Source: Brevundimonas fluminis (GTDB taxonomy: Bacteria; Pseudomonadota; Alphaproteobacteria; Caulobacterales; Caulobacteraceae). Taken from it: DNA of 64,000 nucleotides. The DNA lies in the NCBI RefSeq assembly GCF_003934285.1, contig NZ_RQWJ01000004.1, forward strand, positions 124,001 through 188,000. Reading direction: 5' to 3'. The notes below the pieces were generated by a model. That model was given only the letters and a program-made list of their open reading frames with translations, was not told the DNA's origin and made no database searches. Each line of letters starts with the position of its first letter. Positions within the stretch are counted from its first letter, which is position 1. Positions 53,771 through 64,000 of this stretch are shown one piece after another. Made by a program: the position numbers and the translations under genes.

Positions 53771-54241
53771 TCAGACCGGCGTTCCGCGCCGTGCACGGAA
53801 GAACGTCCGCAAGGCGAGCGCGGACTCGTCGGCGAGGGGGCCGCGCTCGGACAGGGGGCGCCAGTGGAGCGTCGGCTGGTCGAACAGCCTCGGCCCATGG
53901 ACGACGGCGCCGCCCTTCGGGTCGTCGGCGGCCCAGACGACGCGTCCGATGCGGGCGTGCGACATCGCTCCGGCGCACATGGCGCAGGGCTCCAGCGTCA
54001 CATACAGGGTCAGGCCGGTGAGGCGGTAGTTGCCGGTCGCGGCGGCGGCGGCGCGCATCGCGACGACCTCGGCGTGGGCCGTCGGGTCCTGGCTTGAGAC
54101 GGGAGCGTTGGCGCCCGTCCCGACGACCTGTCCGGTCGCTTCGTCGACGACGACGGCGCCCACGGGGACCTCACCTGCGTTCGCCGCCGCTTGCGCGAGG
54201 TCCAGCGCCATGCGCATGAACCGCTCATCATGGTCCGCCAT
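53771..54241 (-). CDS. tadA: tRNA-specific adenosine deaminase
   Basis: Deaminates the wobble adenosine of tRNA-Arg(ACG) to inosine. The 156-residue zinc deaminase has the zinc/catalytic motifs HAEVVAMRAAA (His-Ala-Glu) and TLEPCAMCAGAM (Pro-Cys-x-x-Cys). The start MADHDERFMRMALDLAQAAANAGEVPVGAVVVD is canonical. Its start codon (54239-54241) lies inside the first codons of the divergent rluB frame, a 12-bp overlap. No space is left for a conventional intergenic promoter. Confidence 0.94.
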   Translation of the reverse strand: MADHDERFMRMALDLAQAAANAGEVPVGAVVVDEATGQVVGTGANAPVSSQDPTAHAEVVAMRAAAAATGNYRLTGLTLYVTLEPCAMCAGAMSHARIGRVVWAADDPKGGAVVHGPRLFDQPTLHWRPLSERGPLADESALALRTFFRARRGTPV

Positions 54242-55660
54242 ACCGACGACAACGACAAGAAGCCCCGCCCGCGTCAAGCCGGCGGCAAGTTCGACGACCG
54301 CAAGGGCCCGCCCCGCGCGGGCAGGCCCGGCAGCAAGCCGGGCGCGCCAGGGCGTGAGGCGCACCCCGGCAAGCCGGGCGCCGCCAGGCCCGAGGAGGCC
54401 CCGAAGCGCAGCGAGCGCATCGCCAAGGCCATGGCGCGCGCGGGCATCGCCAGCCGCCGCGAGGTCGAGCGCCTGATCGGCCTCGGCAAGGTGGCCGTGA
54501 ACGGCAAGATCCTGGACACGCCCGCCGTGCTGGTGACCCGCGACGACGTCATCACGGTCGACGGCAAGCCGATCGGCTCGGCCCAGGCCACCCGGGTCTG
54601 GCGCTATCACAAGCCCGCCGGCCTGGTGACCAGCCACAACGATCCGCAGGGGCGGCCGACGGTGTTCGACGCCCTGCCCAACGGCCTGCCGCGCGTGATC
54701 TCGGTCGGGCGTCTGGACCTCAACACCGAGGGCCTGCTGCTGCTGACCAACGACGGCGAGCTGAGCCGGGCGCTGGAGCTGCCGTCGACCGAGCTCGTGC
54801 GCCAGTACCGGGCACGGGCGCGCGGGCGCGTGACGCAGACGCAGCTGGACGGACTGAAGGACGGCGTGACGGTGGACGGCGTCCGCTATGGCCCGATCGA
54901 GGCGACGCTGGACAAGGCGAAGGAGAAGGCCGAGGGCGACGGCAAGGGGCCGGCCAACCTCTGGATCAGCGTGGCGATCACCGAGGGCAAGAACCGCGAG
55001 GTCCGCAAGGTCCTGGAGAGCCTGGGCCTGACCGTGAACCGGCTGATCCGCCTGGCGTACGGGCCGTTCCAGCTCGGGACCTTGCCCGTGGGGTCCGTCG
55101 AGGAGGTGGGGCCGAGGGTGATCCGCGAACTGCTGGCCGAACACATCCGGCCGGAGAATCTGCCGACGGGGAACACGGTCGAGACGCCGGCGCCGATCCC
55201 GGGCCGCCGCAGCGCGGTTCCGATCGTCAAGGGCAAGTCGGGCTCGGCCATGTCGGATCCCTCGCGCAAGCCCAGCCGCGTGCGCGCGGCCGAGGCGGCG
55301 CAGACCGAGGCGGTGGAGCGTCGCTCCAGGCCGCCGAAGAAGCAGGGCTGGGCCAGGGCCGCGCCGAAGTTTGAGCATCCGAAGCGCGACTTCAAACCCC
55401 GCGCCCGCCCCGAGGCGGCCGAAGGCGCGACCGGCGAGCGTCCGAAGCGCCCCTTCAAACCGCGCGAGGACAAGGTGATCGGGCCCAAGTCGGAGACCTG
55501 GGCGCGGGACGGAAAACCGGCCGGGCGGCCGGGCCCCCGGAAGGACTTCAAGCCGCGTTCGGGCGCCGGCGCCGGCGCCGCGCCGCGCGGCGGGCCGGGA
55601 CGGGCGGGGCCGGGCGGCGGCAAGCCACGTCCGGGCGGTGGATCACGCGGAGGGCGCTGA
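54230..55660 (+). CDS. rluB: 23S rRNA pseudouridine synthase RluB-type, long basic tail
   Basis: A 476-residue RluB/RsuA-family enzyme that isomerises a uridine in rRNA. The S4 RNA-binding domain (about 60-110: ERIAKAMARAGIASRREVERLIGLGKVAVNGKIL) is followed by the catalytic domain with the active-site Asp in VISVGRLDLNTEGLLLLTND, TEGKNREVRKVLESLGL and NRLIRLAYGPFQLGTL. Residues after about 305 form a disordered Lys/Arg/Pro/Gly tail with repeated (K/R)-x-F-K-P-R units and an RGG-like end. The ATG at 54230 fits best, but its ribosome site lies within tadA. The 3' end overlaps the convergent phosphatidyltransferase gene by 18 bp. Confidence 0.9.
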   Translation: MVRHTDDNDKKPRPRQAGGKFDDRKGPPRAGRPGSKPGAPGREAHPGKPGAARPEEAPKRSERIAKAMARAGIASRREVERLIGLGKVAVNGKILDTPAVLVTRDDVITVDGKPIGSAQATRVWRYHKPAGLVTSHNDPQGRPTVFDALPNGLPRVISVGRLDLNTEGLLLLTNDGELSRALELPSTELVRQYRARARGRVTQTQLDGLKDGVTVDGVRYGPIEATLDKAKEKAEGDGKGPANLWISVAITEGKNREVRKVLESLGLTVNRLIRLAYGPFQLGTLPVGSVEEVGPRVIRELLAEHIRPENLPTGNTVETPAPIPGRRSAVPIVKGKSGSAMSDPSRKPSRVRAAEAAQTEAVERRSRPPKKQGWARAAPKFEHPKRDFKPRARPEAAEGATGERPKRPFKPREDKVIGPKSETWARDGKPAGRPGPRKDFKPRSGAGAGAAPRGGPGRAGPGGGKPRPGGGSRGGR

Positions 55661-56314
55661 ACCTTTCAGACGGGCGGCCAGGCGGGCGGCGCGTCGCAGG
55701 ACGGTGACGGCCGTCAGCAGGACGACGACCGCCAGCGCCAGCCACAGGACGCCGCGGTCCCAGTCGGGCAGGGCGACCGCGCCGATCGCCGACAGGACGC
55801 AGCCGGCCGTCAGCGCGGCCATGCGGTGCGGCTTGGCCCCCGGCCCTGCGAAGTCGACGACGCCGGTGAGGGCGTGGCCCAGTTCGCGGACGTAGGCCGT
55901 GAGCACCGCCAGCACGGCGGCGCTCCATCCGAGGACCGGGCCGAACGCGGGATCGTAGTGCCGCAAGGCATAGCCCGCGCCGATCAGGAACAGGGCGTCG
56001 GCGACGCGGTCGGGCAGCTCGTTCCAGATGGGGCCCAGGGCGCCGCCGCGGCCGTGCTCGACCGCCACCATGCCGTCCAGCAGGTTGGCCAGCAGGCGCA
56101 GCTGGATGGTGAGTCCCGCCAGCAGCAGCCAGCCGGCGCGGGCGGCGCCCGCGGCGTCCGCCGACTGCCAGAAGGCGGCGAAGCCGACGGCGGCGAACAG
56201 CAGGCTGGAGGCCGAGATCAGGTCGGGCGCAACGCCCATGCGGGCCAGAACGGCGGCGGCGGCGCGCGCCCAGCCGGTCCCGCGCGACTTCAGGGGGCGT
56301 CGGCTGTCGGTCAT
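55643..56314 (-). CDS. CDP-alcohol phosphatidyltransferase, atypical motif
   Basis: A 223-residue membrane enzyme with about five helices. The family motif D-x2-D-G-x2-A-R-x8-G-x3-D-x3-D can be aligned to NLLDGMVAVEHGRGGALGPI followed by WNELPD. The first aspartate is Asn, the Arg is Val, the third aspartate is Asn, and an extra Asp follows (DRVAD). It would link a CDP-diacylglycerol-type donor to an alcohol acceptor, which is unknown. It overlaps the small membrane-protein gene by 4 bp. The divergent cdsA and plsC supply the activated lipid, so the group looks like one phospholipid module. Confidence 0.82.
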   Translation of the reverse strand: MTDSRRPLKSRGTGWARAAAAVLARMGVAPDLISASSLLFAAVGFAAFWQSADAAGAARAGWLLLAGLTIQLRLLANLLDGMVAVEHGRGGALGPIWNELPDRVADALFLIGAGYALRHYDPAFGPVLGWSAAVLAVLTAYVRELGHALTGVVDFAGPGAKPHRMAALTAGCVLSAIGAVALPDWDRGVLWLALAVVVLLTAVTVLRRAARLAARLKGSAPSA

Positions 56315-56697
56315 TTCCGCTCCAGGCTGAGGGCGTAGGCGAAGGCGTAGACCGTGGAGACGGTCCAGGGAACGGCGATGGTGGCCAGGACCTCCGGCGT
56401 CCCGACGGCCATGTGGACGCCGGTCAGCAGGCCCGCGACGGTGAGGCAGCTGGCCACCGGCGGCACCAGCCGGGCGCCAGGGCCGGTCAGGCGGGCGTGG
56501 GCCCATTCCAGCCAGCGCTTGATCAGCAGGGTGATCAGTCCCGACAGGGCGCCTTGCGCGACGAAGGCCGTCGCCATCGCCGCGGCCCCGTGATCGCGAT
56601 TGGCGAAGGCCGCCCAGCCGCCCATGGCCACCACGGCGAAGGCGACATGGGCCACGGTCGAGCGAATAGGGGTCGTCGGGGCGGGCGGCTGCGCCAT
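56311..56697 (-). CDS. four-helix membrane protein of the lipid module
   Basis: A 128-residue protein with four predicted helices (TVAHVAFAVVAMGGWAAFA; AAMATAFVAQGALSGLITLLI; ARLVPPVASCLTVAGLLTGVHM; ATIAVPWTVSTVYAFAYAL). It overlaps the phosphatidyltransferase gene start by 4 bp (ATGA), so they are co-expressed. I do not recognise the family; it could assist the enzyme or move its product. No catalytic motif is visible. Confidence 0.75.
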   Translation of the reverse strand: MAQPPAPTTPIRSTVAHVAFAVVAMGGWAAFANRDHGAAAMATAFVAQGALSGLITLLIKRWLEWAHARLTGPGARLVPPVASCLTVAGLLTGVHMAVGTPEVLATIAVPWTVSTVYAFAYALSLERK

Positions 56698-56734
56698 AAT
56701 GGGTCCGGGCCTGATTCCGGGAGCAGTCTAGGCG

Positions 56735-57700
56735 ATGAGCGACCTGCTGACAGCGGGATTGGGAGAGGTCCGGCCGCCGCTGTTGTGGGGGTTCGCCGGG
56801 CTGGCCGTCGTGCTGGTCGTCGCCTCGCTGGCCGTTCTGTTCCTGCAGAAGACCAAACCGGACCGGGACTGGACCGAGCTGCGGCTCCGGGTGCAGTCGT
56901 GGTGGGGCATGATCGCGGTCGTCGCCCTTGCGCTGGCGCTGGGCTGGGCGGCCATTACGGTGCTGTTCGCGGCCGTCTCGTTCGTGGCGCTGAGAGAGAT
57001 CCTGTCGCTGGCGCCGCTGCGGCGCGAGGACCGGCTGATCGTGCTGTGGGCCTATCTGACCGTGCCGCTGACCTACGGTCTGGTCGCGCTGGACCAGTAC
57101 CGCATCTACCTGGTGGCCATTCCGGTCTGGTTCTTCCTGGTGACGCCGTTCCTGATGGCGATCGCCGGCCAGACGCGGGCCTATCTGGCGACGGTGGCGA
57201 CGATCACCTGGGCGGTCATCGTCTGCGTCTTCAATCTGGCGGTTCTGCCGCTGCTGATGAAGGTCCCGGCCGAAGAGGCCCCGGCGGGGGCGGCGGGGCT
57301 GGTGTTCCTGCTGCTGCTGACGACGGAAGCCAATGACGTCTTCCAGTTCCTGTGCGGCAAGGCGTTCGGCCGGCGCAAGATCCTGCCGACGGTCAGTCCG
57401 AACAAGACCTGGGAGGGGTTCGTCGGGGGCTGGATCCTGACGGCGGCGGCCTTCTGGCTGCTGGCGCCGGTCTTCACGCCGCTGAGCGTCTGGCAGGCGG
57501 CGGTGATGGCGGCGCTGCTTCCGGTCGCGGGCTTCGCGGGCGACGTGACCATGAGCGCGGTCAAGCGCGACCTGGGCGTCAAGGACACCAGCCGGCTGAT
57601 CCCCGGCCACGGCGGCCTGCTGGACCGGATCGACAGCCTGACCTTCACCGCTCCCCTGTTCTTCCACCTCGTGGCCTACTATGCGCTCACCCCCTACTGA
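56735..57700 (+). CDS. cdsA: phosphatidate cytidylyltransferase (CDP-diacylglycerol synthase)
   Basis: Makes CDP-diacylglycerol from phosphatidate and CTP. The 321-residue membrane protein has about eight helices. The family signature is complete near the C-terminus: SAVKRDLGVKDTSRLIPGHG followed by GLLDRID (S-x-x-K-R-x4-K-D-x-x-x-x-h-P-G-H-G-G-x-x-D-R-h-D). TVSPNKTWEGFVGG is also conserved. A canonical CdsA sits elsewhere in most genomes with dxr/uppS. This copy is beside plsC and an atypical phosphatidyltransferase, as in the E. coli ynbAB-like arrangement, so it may be a second, dedicated enzyme. Confidence 0.92.
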   Translation: MSDLLTAGLGEVRPPLLWGFAGLAVVLVVASLAVLFLQKTKPDRDWTELRLRVQSWWGMIAVVALALALGWAAITVLFAAVSFVALREILSLAPLRREDRLIVLWAYLTVPLTYGLVALDQYRIYLVAIPVWFFLVTPFLMAIAGQTRAYLATVATITWAVIVCVFNLAVLPLLMKVPAEEAPAGAAGLVFLLLLTTEANDVFQFLCGKAFGRRKILPTVSPNKTWEGFVGGWILTAAAFWLLAPVFTPLSVWQAAVMAALLPVAGFAGDVTMSAVKRDLGVKDTSRLIPGHGGLLDRIDSLTFTAPLFFHLVAYYALTPY

Positions 57701-58364
57701 GCCCGGAGAGGCGGCGCGGCCGCACAGCTGGCTGCGGCAGGCGTTCCTGACGGCTCTGGCGGCGCCCGCGGTCCGGTTCCTGACCGGCATGGACGTGGTC
57801 GGGCGTGAACGCCTGCCGCGGACGGGCCCCGCCATCATCGCGGCCAACCACGCCAGCCACATGGACGCCTTCATGCTGCTGAGCCTGTTTCCGGCGAAGA
57901 CGCTGGCCAAGGTGCGGCCGGTGGCGGCGGCGGACTACTTCCTGGCCAACCCCGCGATCAGTTGGGTGTCGCTGAACCTGATCGGCATCAGCCCGATCTC
58001 GCGCAAGGTGAAGCGGGGCGAGGACGTGCTGGCGCCGGCGCGGCGCGCGCTGGAGCGGGGCGAGATCATCCTGGTCTTCCCGGAGGGCACGCGCGGCTCG
58101 GGGCAGGGCATGGGGGACCTGAAGGGCGGGGTCGCGCGGCTGGCGGAGGCCTGGCCGGCGGCGCCGGTGATCCCGATCTGGATCCAGGGCGCGGACCGGG
58201 TTCTGCCCAAGGGCGCGCGGACGCCGGTGCCGATGAACTGCACCGCGCTGGTCGGCGAGCCGCTGGTCTGGGAAGAGGGGCAGGACCGGCCGGGGTTCAC
58301 CGCCGCGCTGCGCGAGCGGCTGGAAGCGCTGGCGGCCAGCGCGCCGCCGCAGAAGTGGAGTTGA
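57681..58364 (+). CDS. plsC: 1-acyl-sn-glycerol-3-phosphate acyltransferase family
   Basis: Acylates lysophosphatidate to phosphatidate, the substrate of the adjacent CdsA. The 227-residue protein has the catalytic AANHASHMDAFML (N-H-x4-D) and the glycerol-phosphate-binding LVFPEGTRGSG (F-P-E-G-T-R). A hydrophobic N-terminal helix anchors it. It overlaps cdsA by 20 bp, so the two are coupled; rsmD follows after 1 bp. A different acyl acceptor is possible, given the unusual phosphatidyltransferase nearby. Confidence 0.9.
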   Translation: MRSPPTEPGEAARPHSWLRQAFLTALAAPAVRFLTGMDVVGRERLPRTGPAIIAANHASHMDAFMLLSLFPAKTLAKVRPVAAADYFLANPAISWVSLNLIGISPISRKVKRGEDVLAPARRALERGEIILVFPEGTRGSGQGMGDLKGGVARLAEAWPAAPVIPIWIQGADRVLPKGARTPVPMNCTALVGEPLVWEEGQDRPGFTAALRERLEALAASAPPQKWS

Positions 58365-58365
58365 G

Positions 58366-58941
58366 ATGCGGATCGTCGCGGGATCGCTGAAGGGCCGGGC
58401 CATCGTCGCGCCGGAGGGGCAGGGCACCCGCCCGACCAGCGACCGCGCGCGGCAGGCGATCTTCAACATCCTGGAGCACGCGCCGTGGGCCGAGGGCCTG
58501 CAGGACCAGCGGGTCATCGACCTGTACGCGGGGTCGGGCGCGCTGGGCTATGAGGCGCTGAGCCGAGGGGCGGCGTTCGCCCTGTTCGTGGAGACGGACG
58601 ACGCGGCGCGGGGCGCGATCCGCGAGAACATGGACGCCTATGGCCTGTTCGGGCGCAGCCGGGTGCACCGCAGGAGCGCGACGGACCTGGGGGCGCGGCC
58701 GGGGTCGGCGGGCGAGGCCTTCACCCTGGCCTTCCTGGACCCGCCGTACCGGCAGGGACTGGGCGAGCAGACGCTGGCGCGGCTGCTGGAGGGCGGCTGG
58801 CTGGCGCCCGGGGCCATCGTGGTGTTCGAGCGCGGCGTCGATGAACCGGACATCGAGACGCCCGGCTATGAGCGGCTGGACGCGCGCGACTGGGGGGCCG
58901 CGCGCGTCCTTTTCCTGCGGGCCCTACCAGCGCCGGGCTGA
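58366..58941 (+). CDS. rsmD: 16S rRNA (guanine966-N2)-methyltransferase
   Basis: Methylates G966 of 16S rRNA. The 191-residue SAM-dependent enzyme has the start [36 protein letters not shown], the SAM motif [27 protein letters not shown], and the catalytic [12 protein letters not shown] (D-P-P-Y). Length is typical. It begins 1 bp after plsC, in the same operon, and ends inside the convergent yjhX frame (18 bp overlap). Confidence 0.95.
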
Positions 58942-59199: not shown

Positions 59200-59391
59200 T
59201 TGAGGATTGTCCGAATGGCGTGACGGGTCGCTCCGGCGCGCGGGCCGGAGGGCGGGTCAGAGGCTCTTCACAGGCTTGCTGCGAGGCCTCAGGCCTGTCG
59301 CGCAATCTCGGACATGGACTTCCTGTCGGGCGGAATGCCCGGGGAGACGCGGGATATGGCACAGGCGGCGGTTTCGGGCCAGTCTGGGCGC

Positions 59392-60471
59392 ATGACCCGC
59401 ATCGACCGCCGCGCCTTCCTGACCGCCGCCGCCGCGCTGGGCGCGTGCGCGCCGCCCCCGAGGGAAGCCGGTCCCGGCGACTGGGAGGTCTTCCCGGAGA
59501 CGGCCGTCGGCTGGGACGGCTGGCCCGCCATGCCGTGGGCGGTGCAGGAGATCTACGCCGCCGTCTGGGACGGGCGCATCGCCACGGCGGGCGGGCTGAA
59601 GTCCGTGCAGGGGCAGCCGCTTCACATCGAGGACCGGCTGGCGCTGTTCGACCCGTCGCGGATGAGCTGGAGCGAAGGGCCGCGCCTGCCGGCGCCCCGG
59701 CATCATCCCATGATGGTCGCGTCGGGAGAAACCCTGTGGGCGATCGGCGGCTACGGCCGGTCCGACGCAGGCGAGTGGACCAACGCCGCCGAGGTCTGGT
59801 CGCTGACGCCCGGCGCGACGGCGTGGGCCGACGGACCGGCCCTGCCCGTGCCGCAGGCCGAGGCGGTGGGCCTGAGCCACGGCGGGCGGGTGCATCTGGT
59901 GACGGGCAGATCGCCGGGCGGGGCGGCCAACGGCGGGTGGAACGATCAGGCCGACGTCGACCGGCATCTGGTGCTGGCCGACGGGCGGTGGGAGACGGCG
60001 CGGCCGTGCCCGATGGCGCGCAACAGCGCGGCGGGCGCCGTGCTGGACGGGGCGCTGTGGATCGCGGGCGGGCGCACGGTGAGCGGCGGCGGCACGGGGC
60101 GGCTGGACCGGTACGACCCCGTCGCCGACCGGTGGGACACCCTGGCGCCCATTCCCCGGTCCGGGGCGTCGGGACAGCAGGTCGGCGGCGGACTGGCGCT
60201 GGTCGCGCTTCCCGGACGGCTGGTCGCGTTCGGGGGCGAGTGGTTCCGGCCCCGCGCGGAAGGCGGCGGGGGCGGGGTCTTCGCCGAGACCTGGGTCTAC
60301 TCGGTCGGCCGCGACGTGTGGGAGCGCGGGCCGGACATGCAGACGCCGCGCCACGGGCTTGCGGCGGTGGAGTGGCACGGCCGGGTGGTGGCCGTCGGCG
60401 GCGGGGACGTGGTCTCGGGCGGCAACGCCACGGGCGTGGTGGAGGCGTGGACGCCGTCGCCGTGGCGCTGA
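59392..60471 (+). CDS. kelch-repeat lipoprotein with twin-arginine signal
   Basis: A 359-residue exported protein. The signal MTRIDRRAFLTAAAALGACAP combines a Tat motif (D-R-R-A-F-L) with a lipobox (ALGAC). The mature part is built of kelch-like beta-propeller blades, each about 50 residues with G-G and W pairs: [65 protein letters not shown]. Such propellers bind glycans or proteins; no enzyme motif is evident. ATG 59392 is chosen as the start of the Tat signal; 26 codons further upstream remain open. Convergent with the following lipoprotein gene. Confidence 0.85.
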   Translation: MTRIDRRAFLTAAAALGACAPPPREAGPGDWEVFPETAVGWDGWPAMPWAVQEIYAAVWDGRIATAGGLKSVQGQPLHIEDRLALFDPSRMSWSEGPRLPAPRHHPMMVASGETLWAIGGYGRSDAGEWTNAAEVWSLTPGATAWADGPALPVPQAEAVGLSHGGRVHLVTGRSPGGAANGGWNDQADVDRHLVLADGRWETARPCPMARNSAAGAVLDGALWIAGGRTVSGGGTGRLDRYDPVADRWDTLAPIPRSGASGQQVGGGLALVALPGRLVAFGGEWFRPRAEGGGGGVFAETWVYSVGRDVWERGPDMQTPRHGLAAVEWHGRVVAVGGGDVVSGGNATGVVEAWTPSPWR

Positions 60472-63597: not shown

Positions 63598-64000
63598 TCA
63601 GGCCTCGGCCAGGGCCGCGCGGCGGGCCTCGCGGCGGGCCTCGATGCGGCTCCAGATCCGGTCGTGGACGGTGAAGAAGACCGTCTGGACCAGCGGCTCG
63701 ATGACGCCGATGGCCAGGGCCACCTTCCAGTTCTGGGTCAGGGCATAGGCGACGGCCACCGCCACGGTGAAGTGCATGACGCCATAGGTGACGGTCTTCA
63801 GCGCGATCTGCTTGAACGAGGTCGGCAGGGCGTGACTGTGGCCGTGGTGGGCGCGGTTCTGCTCCTCGATCGACATGACCTCGAGGCGGGCGGTGAAGGC
63901 CTCGGACGCCTCCTCCAGCCCGGACAGCATCCGCCGCCGCTCGATGCGGTGCCAGACGCGGTCGTGGATCGAATAGGCGATGGTCTGGAAGAAGGGCTCG
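63598..64000 (-). CDS. tandem DUF2061 membrane protein (partial, runs off the right edge)
   Basis: The minus-strand frame is open from the window edge to the stop at 63598-63600. The C-terminal 134 codons are seen. Two copies of the DUF2061 end unit are visible: [20 protein letters not shown] at the edge and [20 protein letters not shown] later. Between them is a linker with HHGHSH and then [44 protein letters not shown], giving two helices. DUF2061 is a small membrane domain of unknown role. A shorter start at 63930 would cut through the first repeat, so the gene continues upstream. Confidence 0.8.

Follow-up and report, generated by a model that had tools for sequence, protein, structure and literature searches.

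Gene content of the locus

In the present study we analysed a 64,000-nucleotide stretch of the Brevundimonas fluminis genome (contig NZ_RQWJ01000004.1, positions 124,001 to 188,000; source assembly 2.64 Mb), hereafter called the window, and focused on a small group of putative phospholipid-synthesis genes related to the ynb genes of Escherichia coli. A previous reading made from the sequence alone (the sequence-only reading) had described four genes packed into 2.7 kb as two divergent pairs with overlaps of 4 and 20 bp, and this layout was recovered in our analysis. Four intact open reading frames at 55643-58364 encode a CDP-alcohol phosphotransferase (the transferase), a four-helix membrane protein (TM4), CdsA and PlsC. 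The reading frames of the transferase and TM4 overlap by 4 bases (ATGA), those of cdsA and plsC by 20 bases, and 37 bases separate the two divergent pairs. The features of the locus are as follows:

55643..56314, minus strand: YnbA-like CDP-alcohol phosphotransferase of the window type, 223 residues (open reading frame, fold model, profile match to CDP-alcohol phosphotransferases of the PDB)
56009..56086, minus strand: altered metal motif of the transferase, N77-x2-D80-G-x2-A-V...G94-x3-N98-x3-D102 (alignments)
55823..55834, minus strand: K161-P-H-R164 of the transferase, aligned with R152-P-E-R155 of Mt phosphatidylinositol-phosphate (PIP) synthase
56311..56697, minus strand: TM4, four-helix membrane protein of unassigned family, 128 residues (model and relatives)
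56735..57700, plus strand: second cdsA, YnbB type, 321 residues (Pfam, BLASTP)
57681..58364, plus strand: plsC-type acyltransferase, 227 residues, with the motifs NHASHMD and FPEGTR (Pfam)

The proposed enzyme assignments were confirmed by Pfam for CdsA (PF01148, E 6.8e-67) and PlsC (PF01553, E 2e-23), and for the transferase by its AlphaFold2 fold (see below). The window CdsA contains the CDP-diacylglycerol synthase signature, and the catalytic motifs are retained in both CdsA and PlsC. In BLASTP the window CdsA shared 41% identity with E. coli YnbB across 296 residues, and it aligned well with the housekeeping CdsA of its own genome across 121 residues only. The housekeeping gene was found in the order pyrH-frr-uppS-cdsA-dxr-rseP (gene names read from translations). 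As the sequence-only reading had supposed, the cassette cdsA is therefore not the only copy in the genome; it is a second one, of the E. coli YnbB type. The housekeeping pgsA adjoins uvrC and is the sole place in the genome matched by TIGR00560 at E<=10, and PF01553 acyltransferases occupy four places, the cassette PlsC counted. As a side observation, PF01066 matched a single place in the whole genome at E<=0.001, which is PgsA, and no phosphatidylserine synthase of this family was seen at that threshold. The genome may thus lack phosphatidylethanolamine made via a PF01066-family phosphatidylserine synthase.

Fold, metal site and acceptor site of the transferase

The AlphaFold2 model of the transferase (mean predicted local distance difference test score, pLDDT, 91.1) shows a CDP-alcohol phosphotransferase fold. 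When this model was used for a structure search, the top chains were all CDP-alcohol phosphotransferases, and the six helices of the class I fold are present. The nearest solved structures were PIP synthases and AF2299 (Z 19.9-21.0), while Z values of 12.2-12.3 were obtained for chains 7drj and 7drk, which we take to be S. aureus-type PgsA. A profile search yielded seven PDB sequences at E<=1, the best at 1.8e-8. Neither the transferase nor TM4 of the window matched any Pfam family at E<=1, PF01066 included; 13 of 44 transferase relatives did match PF01066 at this threshold (best 1.6e-5). The best NCBIfam models were archaetidylinositol-phosphate synthase, which scored 54.9 bits (E 9.5e-15; cut-off 180), and PIP synthase, and TIGR00560 (PgsA) was not among the matches at E<=1. 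In BLASTP the protein showed no significant similarity to the PgsA of its genome (best E 0.094), and it shared 28% identity with E. coli YnbA across 156 residues (E 4e-11). The likeness to ynbAB noted before thus extends to both CdsA and the transferase. By its modelled fold the transferase is a class I CDP-alcohol phosphotransferase, which we file as a variant rather than as a canonical member.

A transferase relative was found at E<=1e-5 in 54 of 398 genomes of the phylum, and the scores of these relatives were separated by a gap. Twenty-two places scored 186-326 bits (window type) and 33 scored at most 62 bits, the latter group mostly resembling E. coli YnbA (YnbA type).

The transferase had been called atypical, and its metal motif bears this out. 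Instead of the canonical signature D-x2-D-G-x2-A-R...G-x3-D-x3-D, the window protein carries N-x2-D-G-x2-A-V...G-x3-N-x3-D, so that two of the four metal-binding aspartates are replaced by asparagine. In a profile alignment N77, D80, N98 and D102 occupy the places of Mt PgsA1 D68, D71, D89 and D93. In Mt PgsA1, Mg-1 is held by D68, D71 and D89 and Mg-2 by D89, and D93 is the presumed base (PMC6506517). E. coli YnbA carries the same pair of Asp-to-Asn changes, whereas E. coli PgsA and the PgsA of the Brevundimonas genome show the canonical D/D/D/D. The arginine of the motif is present in YnbA and is mostly valine in the window type. Our literature searches on CDP-alcohol phosphotransferases, YnbA and Arc1A retrieved no paper on this substitution.

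The N/D/N/D pattern was conserved in 54 of 58 homologues. This set comprises 58 of 69 places obtained with whole-protein queries, with the window excluded and D/D relatives included. The four exceptions are L038 (D/D/D/D), L041 (D/D/D/G), L040 (N/D/T/D) and L190 (A/D/N/D). Both CdsA and PlsC were encoded at the loci of 48 of the 54 N/D/N/D homologues vs none of the four exceptions. In a second alignment D80, D102, K161 and R164 were invariant in 81/81 rows and R208 was present in 79/81; these rows are a biased sample, for which two motif stretches had served as search patterns, and the 58-homologue set is the fairer one. There, the same five residues were also kept in the window-type and in most YnbA-type rows. 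The conserved N/D/N/D pattern, together with the invariant D80, D102, K161 and R164, points, at the level of sequence, to selection for a function that uses a different site, and not to decay. In a tree of 49 chosen rows the window type and the YnbA type each formed one clade (support 98 each, starred) and were joined at a support of 89 (unstarred). Since the outgroups sit on long branches and the alignment retained the motif columns, the tree does not establish a single origin of the N/N motif.

For the acceptor site, Mt PIP synthase provides a reference. R155 and R195 are regarded as its ligands for the phosphate group of inositol phosphate, and K135 may contact the inositol ring (PMC4634129). 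In the profile alignment R164, R208 and R143 of the window protein stand at the places of R155, R195 and K135, respectively. R164 and R208 are common to nearly all YnbA-type rows, in which position 143 is glycine, and PgsA differs from the window transferase at all three positions. Because R164 and R208 align with the phosphate-binding arginines of PIP synthase and are kept in the YnbA type, the acceptor is likely to carry a phosphate or another anionic group.

Distribution of the cassette

Among 101 Brevundimonas genomes the transferase was found in six. The second CdsA was present in the same six genomes and in none of the other 95, and it scored 491-685 bits in the carriers vs 59-84 bits for other CdsA copies. 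Treating the genomes as independent, which they are not, gives a probability of 8e-10 for identical sets. The Brevundimonas halotolerans transferase is 72% identical to that of the window. The cassette lies between two genes which flank it as follows:

54191..55660, plus strand: left border, RluB-like pseudouridine synthase (open reading frame span as listed, start putative)
58366..58941, plus strand: right border, rsmD-like methyltransferase gene (Pfam Cons_hypoth95)

The end of the transferase gene overlaps the end of the RluB-like gene by 18 bases, and rsmD follows directly after plsC with 1 base between them. From the 95 Brevundimonas genomes without the transferase, 12 were chosen as cassette-free sites. 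All 12 had rsmD, with the RluB-like gene upstream in 11, and within the roughly 3.6 kb fetched no cassette gene was detected. Between the aligned end of RluB and rsmD there were at most 75 bases in four of these sites (L211, L216, L218, L220), and the gap was 0.26-1.15 kb in the other seven.

The genes also occur together in named relatives. Of 291 transferase relatives in named genomes, 80 were kept for analysis; transferase, CdsA and PlsC were found together at 74 of the 80 loci and TM4 at 62. Five arrangements occurred in the 74 loci: divergent with TM4 (31), in one direction with TM4 (28), divergent without TM4 (10), plsC-cdsA-transferase (3) and transferase-plsC-cdsA (2). The annotated order in Nitratireductor and Paracoccus is lysophospholipid acyltransferase, phosphatidate cytidylyltransferase, in some cases a hypothetical protein, and CDP-alcohol phosphatidyltransferase. 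Of 22 window-type loci examined besides the window, 20 encoded CdsA and PlsC and 10 encoded TM4. For 34 YnbA-type loci the numbers were 28 (both CdsA and PlsC), 18 (YnbC), 14 (YnbD) and 12 (all four). Thus, the co-occurrence that had been proposed as a check is strongly positive: transferase, CdsA and PlsC form one cassette, which is kept or lost as a block. Plasmid matches to the transferase numbered 136 records, of which 36 covered at least 80% of its length and 101 were from Rhizobium. Three further loci were observed in passing. YnbA-type clusters are located on large plasmids of Caballeronia (L227) and Shinella (L228), and L227 consists only of transferase, PlsC and CdsA in divergent order, as in the window without TM4. 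In G540 (L146 / L172) a window-type transferase copy is broken by a stop codon, at a locus at a contig end.

TM4 is indeed a four-helix protein according to AlphaFold2 (pLDDT 91.3). Strong matches (128-174 bits) were found in 11 of the 398 genomes, all of them window-type carriers in which TM4 and the transferase are adjacent. Weak matches (28-34 bits) were seen in G599, G245 and G489, for which no window-type transferase is listed. TM4 and its relatives share invariant polar residues in or at the helices (H17, N33, Q48, K60, H95, then G-T-P/x-E). Pfam and NCBIfam matches of 33 relatives were scattered and weak (ECF_trnsprt in 4, best 0.053; DUF4235 in 2, best 1.9e-5). The top PDB fold matches, TIM23 and TIM22 chains among them, had E values near 1 and were not used. 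A DUF2061 membrane protein encoded at 63598-63930 (minus strand) was considered as a TM4 relative and rejected (hhalign probability 0.30%).

Relation to known systems and proposed pathway

The E. coli K-12 operon ynbABCD shares with the window the N/D/N/D motif of the transferase (YnbA) and a YnbB-type CdsA beside it. In contrast, the E. coli K-12 operon encodes YnbC (a hydrolase/methyltransferase) and YnbD (a phosphatase) and lacks plsC, whereas in the window PlsC and TM4 are encoded and YnbC and YnbD are missing; the transferases also belong to separate clades and differ at the motif arginine. In E. coli, the glycolipid MPIase increased when YnbB was overproduced, and YnbB was unable to substitute for CdsA (PMC6362211). 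ynbA is among the E. coli genes tabulated for a genome-wide cyclic di-GMP screen (PMC13031359), and our literature search on ynbA retrieved no substrate for the protein.

Among systems whose role is known, the closest is probably Arc1 of P. aeruginosa. arc1A-F (PA2541-36) was described as a putative specialised phospholipid pathway, five of its six genes being related to phospholipid synthesis or metabolism and four of the six proteins resembling phosphatidylglycerol-synthesis enzymes (PMC8926400). Its expression is very low without Gac/Rsm stimulation and inducible, and it is required when the type VI secretion system of B. thailandensis attacks (PMC8926400). Full resistance to the V. cholerae and A. 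baylyi lipase effectors depends on arc1A (PMC12663445). In some of our genomes we found the six-gene layout YnbA-YnbC-YnbD-x-PlsC-CdsA, and the same six genes occur in an annotated Shinella plasmid cluster with a divergent transferase. We take PA2541 to be a YnbA-like gene, and Arc1 presumably includes hydrolase/methyltransferase- and phosphatase-like genes. These clusters fit the published description of Arc1, and we infer that they may be equivalent to it. Like Arc1, the window cassette is a second set of genes dedicated to phospholipid synthesis, in addition to those for housekeeping. It differs in having four genes instead of six and another transferase subtype; Gac/Rsm control and a defence role have been reported for Arc1.

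Taken together, we regard the locus as a genuine, coherent accessory lipid pathway of the same kind as ynb and Arc1, marked out by its transferase subtype and by a partner family without a Pfam model. The gene identities, the cassette behaviour, the fold, the altered motif and the kept arginines were seen directly. With a probability of roughly 50% the pathway is self-contained and provides, on demand, a phosphatidyl lipid with an anionic acceptor for envelope protection or repair. PlsC would acylate lyso-phosphatidate to phosphatidate, from which the YnbB-type CdsA would form CDP-diacylglycerol. The YnbA-like transferase, which we infer to be catalytically active, would then transfer the phosphatidyl group to an acceptor bearing a phosphate or similar anionic group, and TM4, where present, may be its membrane partner. 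With D80 and D102 a metal ligand and the base would be retained, whereas the usual two-metal site would lose two charges through N77 and N98. Such a lipid, made on demand, would help to protect the envelope or to repair it, in the way that the probably related Arc1 counters lipase toxins. The window cassette may be a pared-down sister of Arc1, with the same supply line and kind of transferase and without the tailoring genes; by likeness to Arc1, it may defend against lipases.

Several observations weigh against this pathway. The aspartates replaced by N77 and N98 are metal ligands in canonical PgsA1 (PMC6506517). PlsC, CdsA or both were missing from the fetched stretch at six of the 80 named loci (L058, L063, L065, L074, L089, L099), some of which lie at contig ends. 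A window-type transferase in a one-contig, complete-looking genome (L164, G611:C1:1262000-1272500) has no CdsA or PlsC within about 5 kb, and TM4 is absent from 11 of the 22 window-type carriers. Arc1 is linked to the cassette through gene content and the presumed identity of PA2541, and the window has no YnbC- or YnbD-like genes. An E. coli ynbB knockout resembled its parent in MPIase level and growth (PMC6362211). In the 2022 study no single B. thailandensis effector tested explained the Arc1 defect (PMC8926400), and in the 2025 study the part of arc1A was called auxiliary, beside arc3A (PMC12663445).

Other products and roles were considered. The cassette might be a spare phosphatidylglycerol route, in which glycerol-3-phosphate is the acceptor and ordinary phosphatidylglycerol-phosphate is formed from a separate CDP-diacylglycerol pool, with its own regulation or different acyl chains. 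An anionic acceptor and the resemblance of four Arc1 proteins to phosphatidylglycerol-synthesis enzymes (PMC8926400) are consistent with this, and the YnbD-like PAP2/dual-specificity phosphatases of fuller clusters could strip a phosphate. Yet the genome already has pgsA, and the window protein differs from PgsA at residues 143, 164 and 208, matches no pgsA model and does not align significantly with the genome's PgsA, so we regard this route as unlikely. Somewhat less credible still is a non-enzymatic or regulatory role, in which the transferase binds CDP-diacylglycerol without transfer and PlsC and CdsA merely boost the supply of phosphatidate and CDP-diacylglycerol. It would suit the loss of ligands of Mg-1 (D68) and of both metals (D89), but D80, D102 (at the place of the presumed base), K161 and R164 are invariant and the N/D/N/D pattern is widely conserved.

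A PIP synthase would agree with the closest structures, the kept acceptor-site arginines and the best NCBIfam models, the score of 54.9 bits being below the cut-off of 180. However, inositol-1-phosphate synthase (PF01658) was not found in the window's genome, and among the 398 genomes it was present in one of the 22 window-type carriers (G596) vs 35 of the 376 others. Because the genome lacks this synthase and the carriers are not enriched for it, inositol phosphate is an unlikely acceptor; inositol lipids were rejected as product and PIP synthase activity is most improbable. The window transferase shares the fold and the phosphate-binding arginines with the PIP synthases Mt PgsA1 and RsPIPS and differs from them in the first and third motif aspartates and in the motif arginine; housekeeping PgsA shares the superfamily by fold. 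Phosphatidyl-glucosyl-diacylglycerol, a lipid of Brevundimonas/Caulobacter, was also rejected as product, since a cassette in 6/101 Brevundimonas genomes is too rare for a lipid described for the genus. For an MPIase-type product, the phosphate of the acceptor would attack CDP-diacylglycerol at the transferase to give a sugar-pyrophosphate-linked diacylglycerol. In E. coli, more MPIase is made with CdsA and with overproduced YnbB, and CDP-diacylglycerol and GlcNAc-1-phosphate give rise to GlcNAc-PP-diacylglycerol (PMC6362211); a phosphate nucleophile would also suit a pocket that holds phosphate and the alteration of the metal site. The reaction was assigned to CdsA/YnbB, though, with ynbA not mentioned in the main text, and the ynbB knockout retained MPIase (PMC6362211), which makes this product very unlikely.

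A broader version of the accessory-pathway reading is speculative and unlikely. The N-x2-D...N-x3-D transferases of the window and YnbA types might form a separate catalytic class of CDP-alcohol phosphotransferases that works with a reduced metal site and accepts either a phosphorylated head group or a lysophospholipid. Together with the PlsC and CdsA of their own loci, they would constitute a portable membrane-repair cassette against lipase attack, acting by lysophospholipid capping or via a lipase-resistant lipid. The conserved Asp-to-Asn pair poses the question of how a two-metal enzyme family works with half of its acidic ligands. The Arc1 reaction is not given in the available parts of the cited papers (PMC8926400, PMC12663445), although Arc1 aids resistance to lipase toxins. 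As a minimal three-enzyme relative that is all-or-none among close strains, the cassette is an easy place to seek the product.

In the sequence around the cassette (55500-58500) a scan for a single promoter type, sigma-70-like, gave no hit (shuffle mean 0.1). PADLOC models at E<=0.01 matched none of the four window proteins, nor YnbA, YnbC or YnbD. Further downstream, a Kelch-repeat protein is encoded at 59314-60471 (plus strand), the N-terminal RRAFLTAAAALGAC of which, as judged by eye, resembles an export signal with a lipobox-like cysteine.

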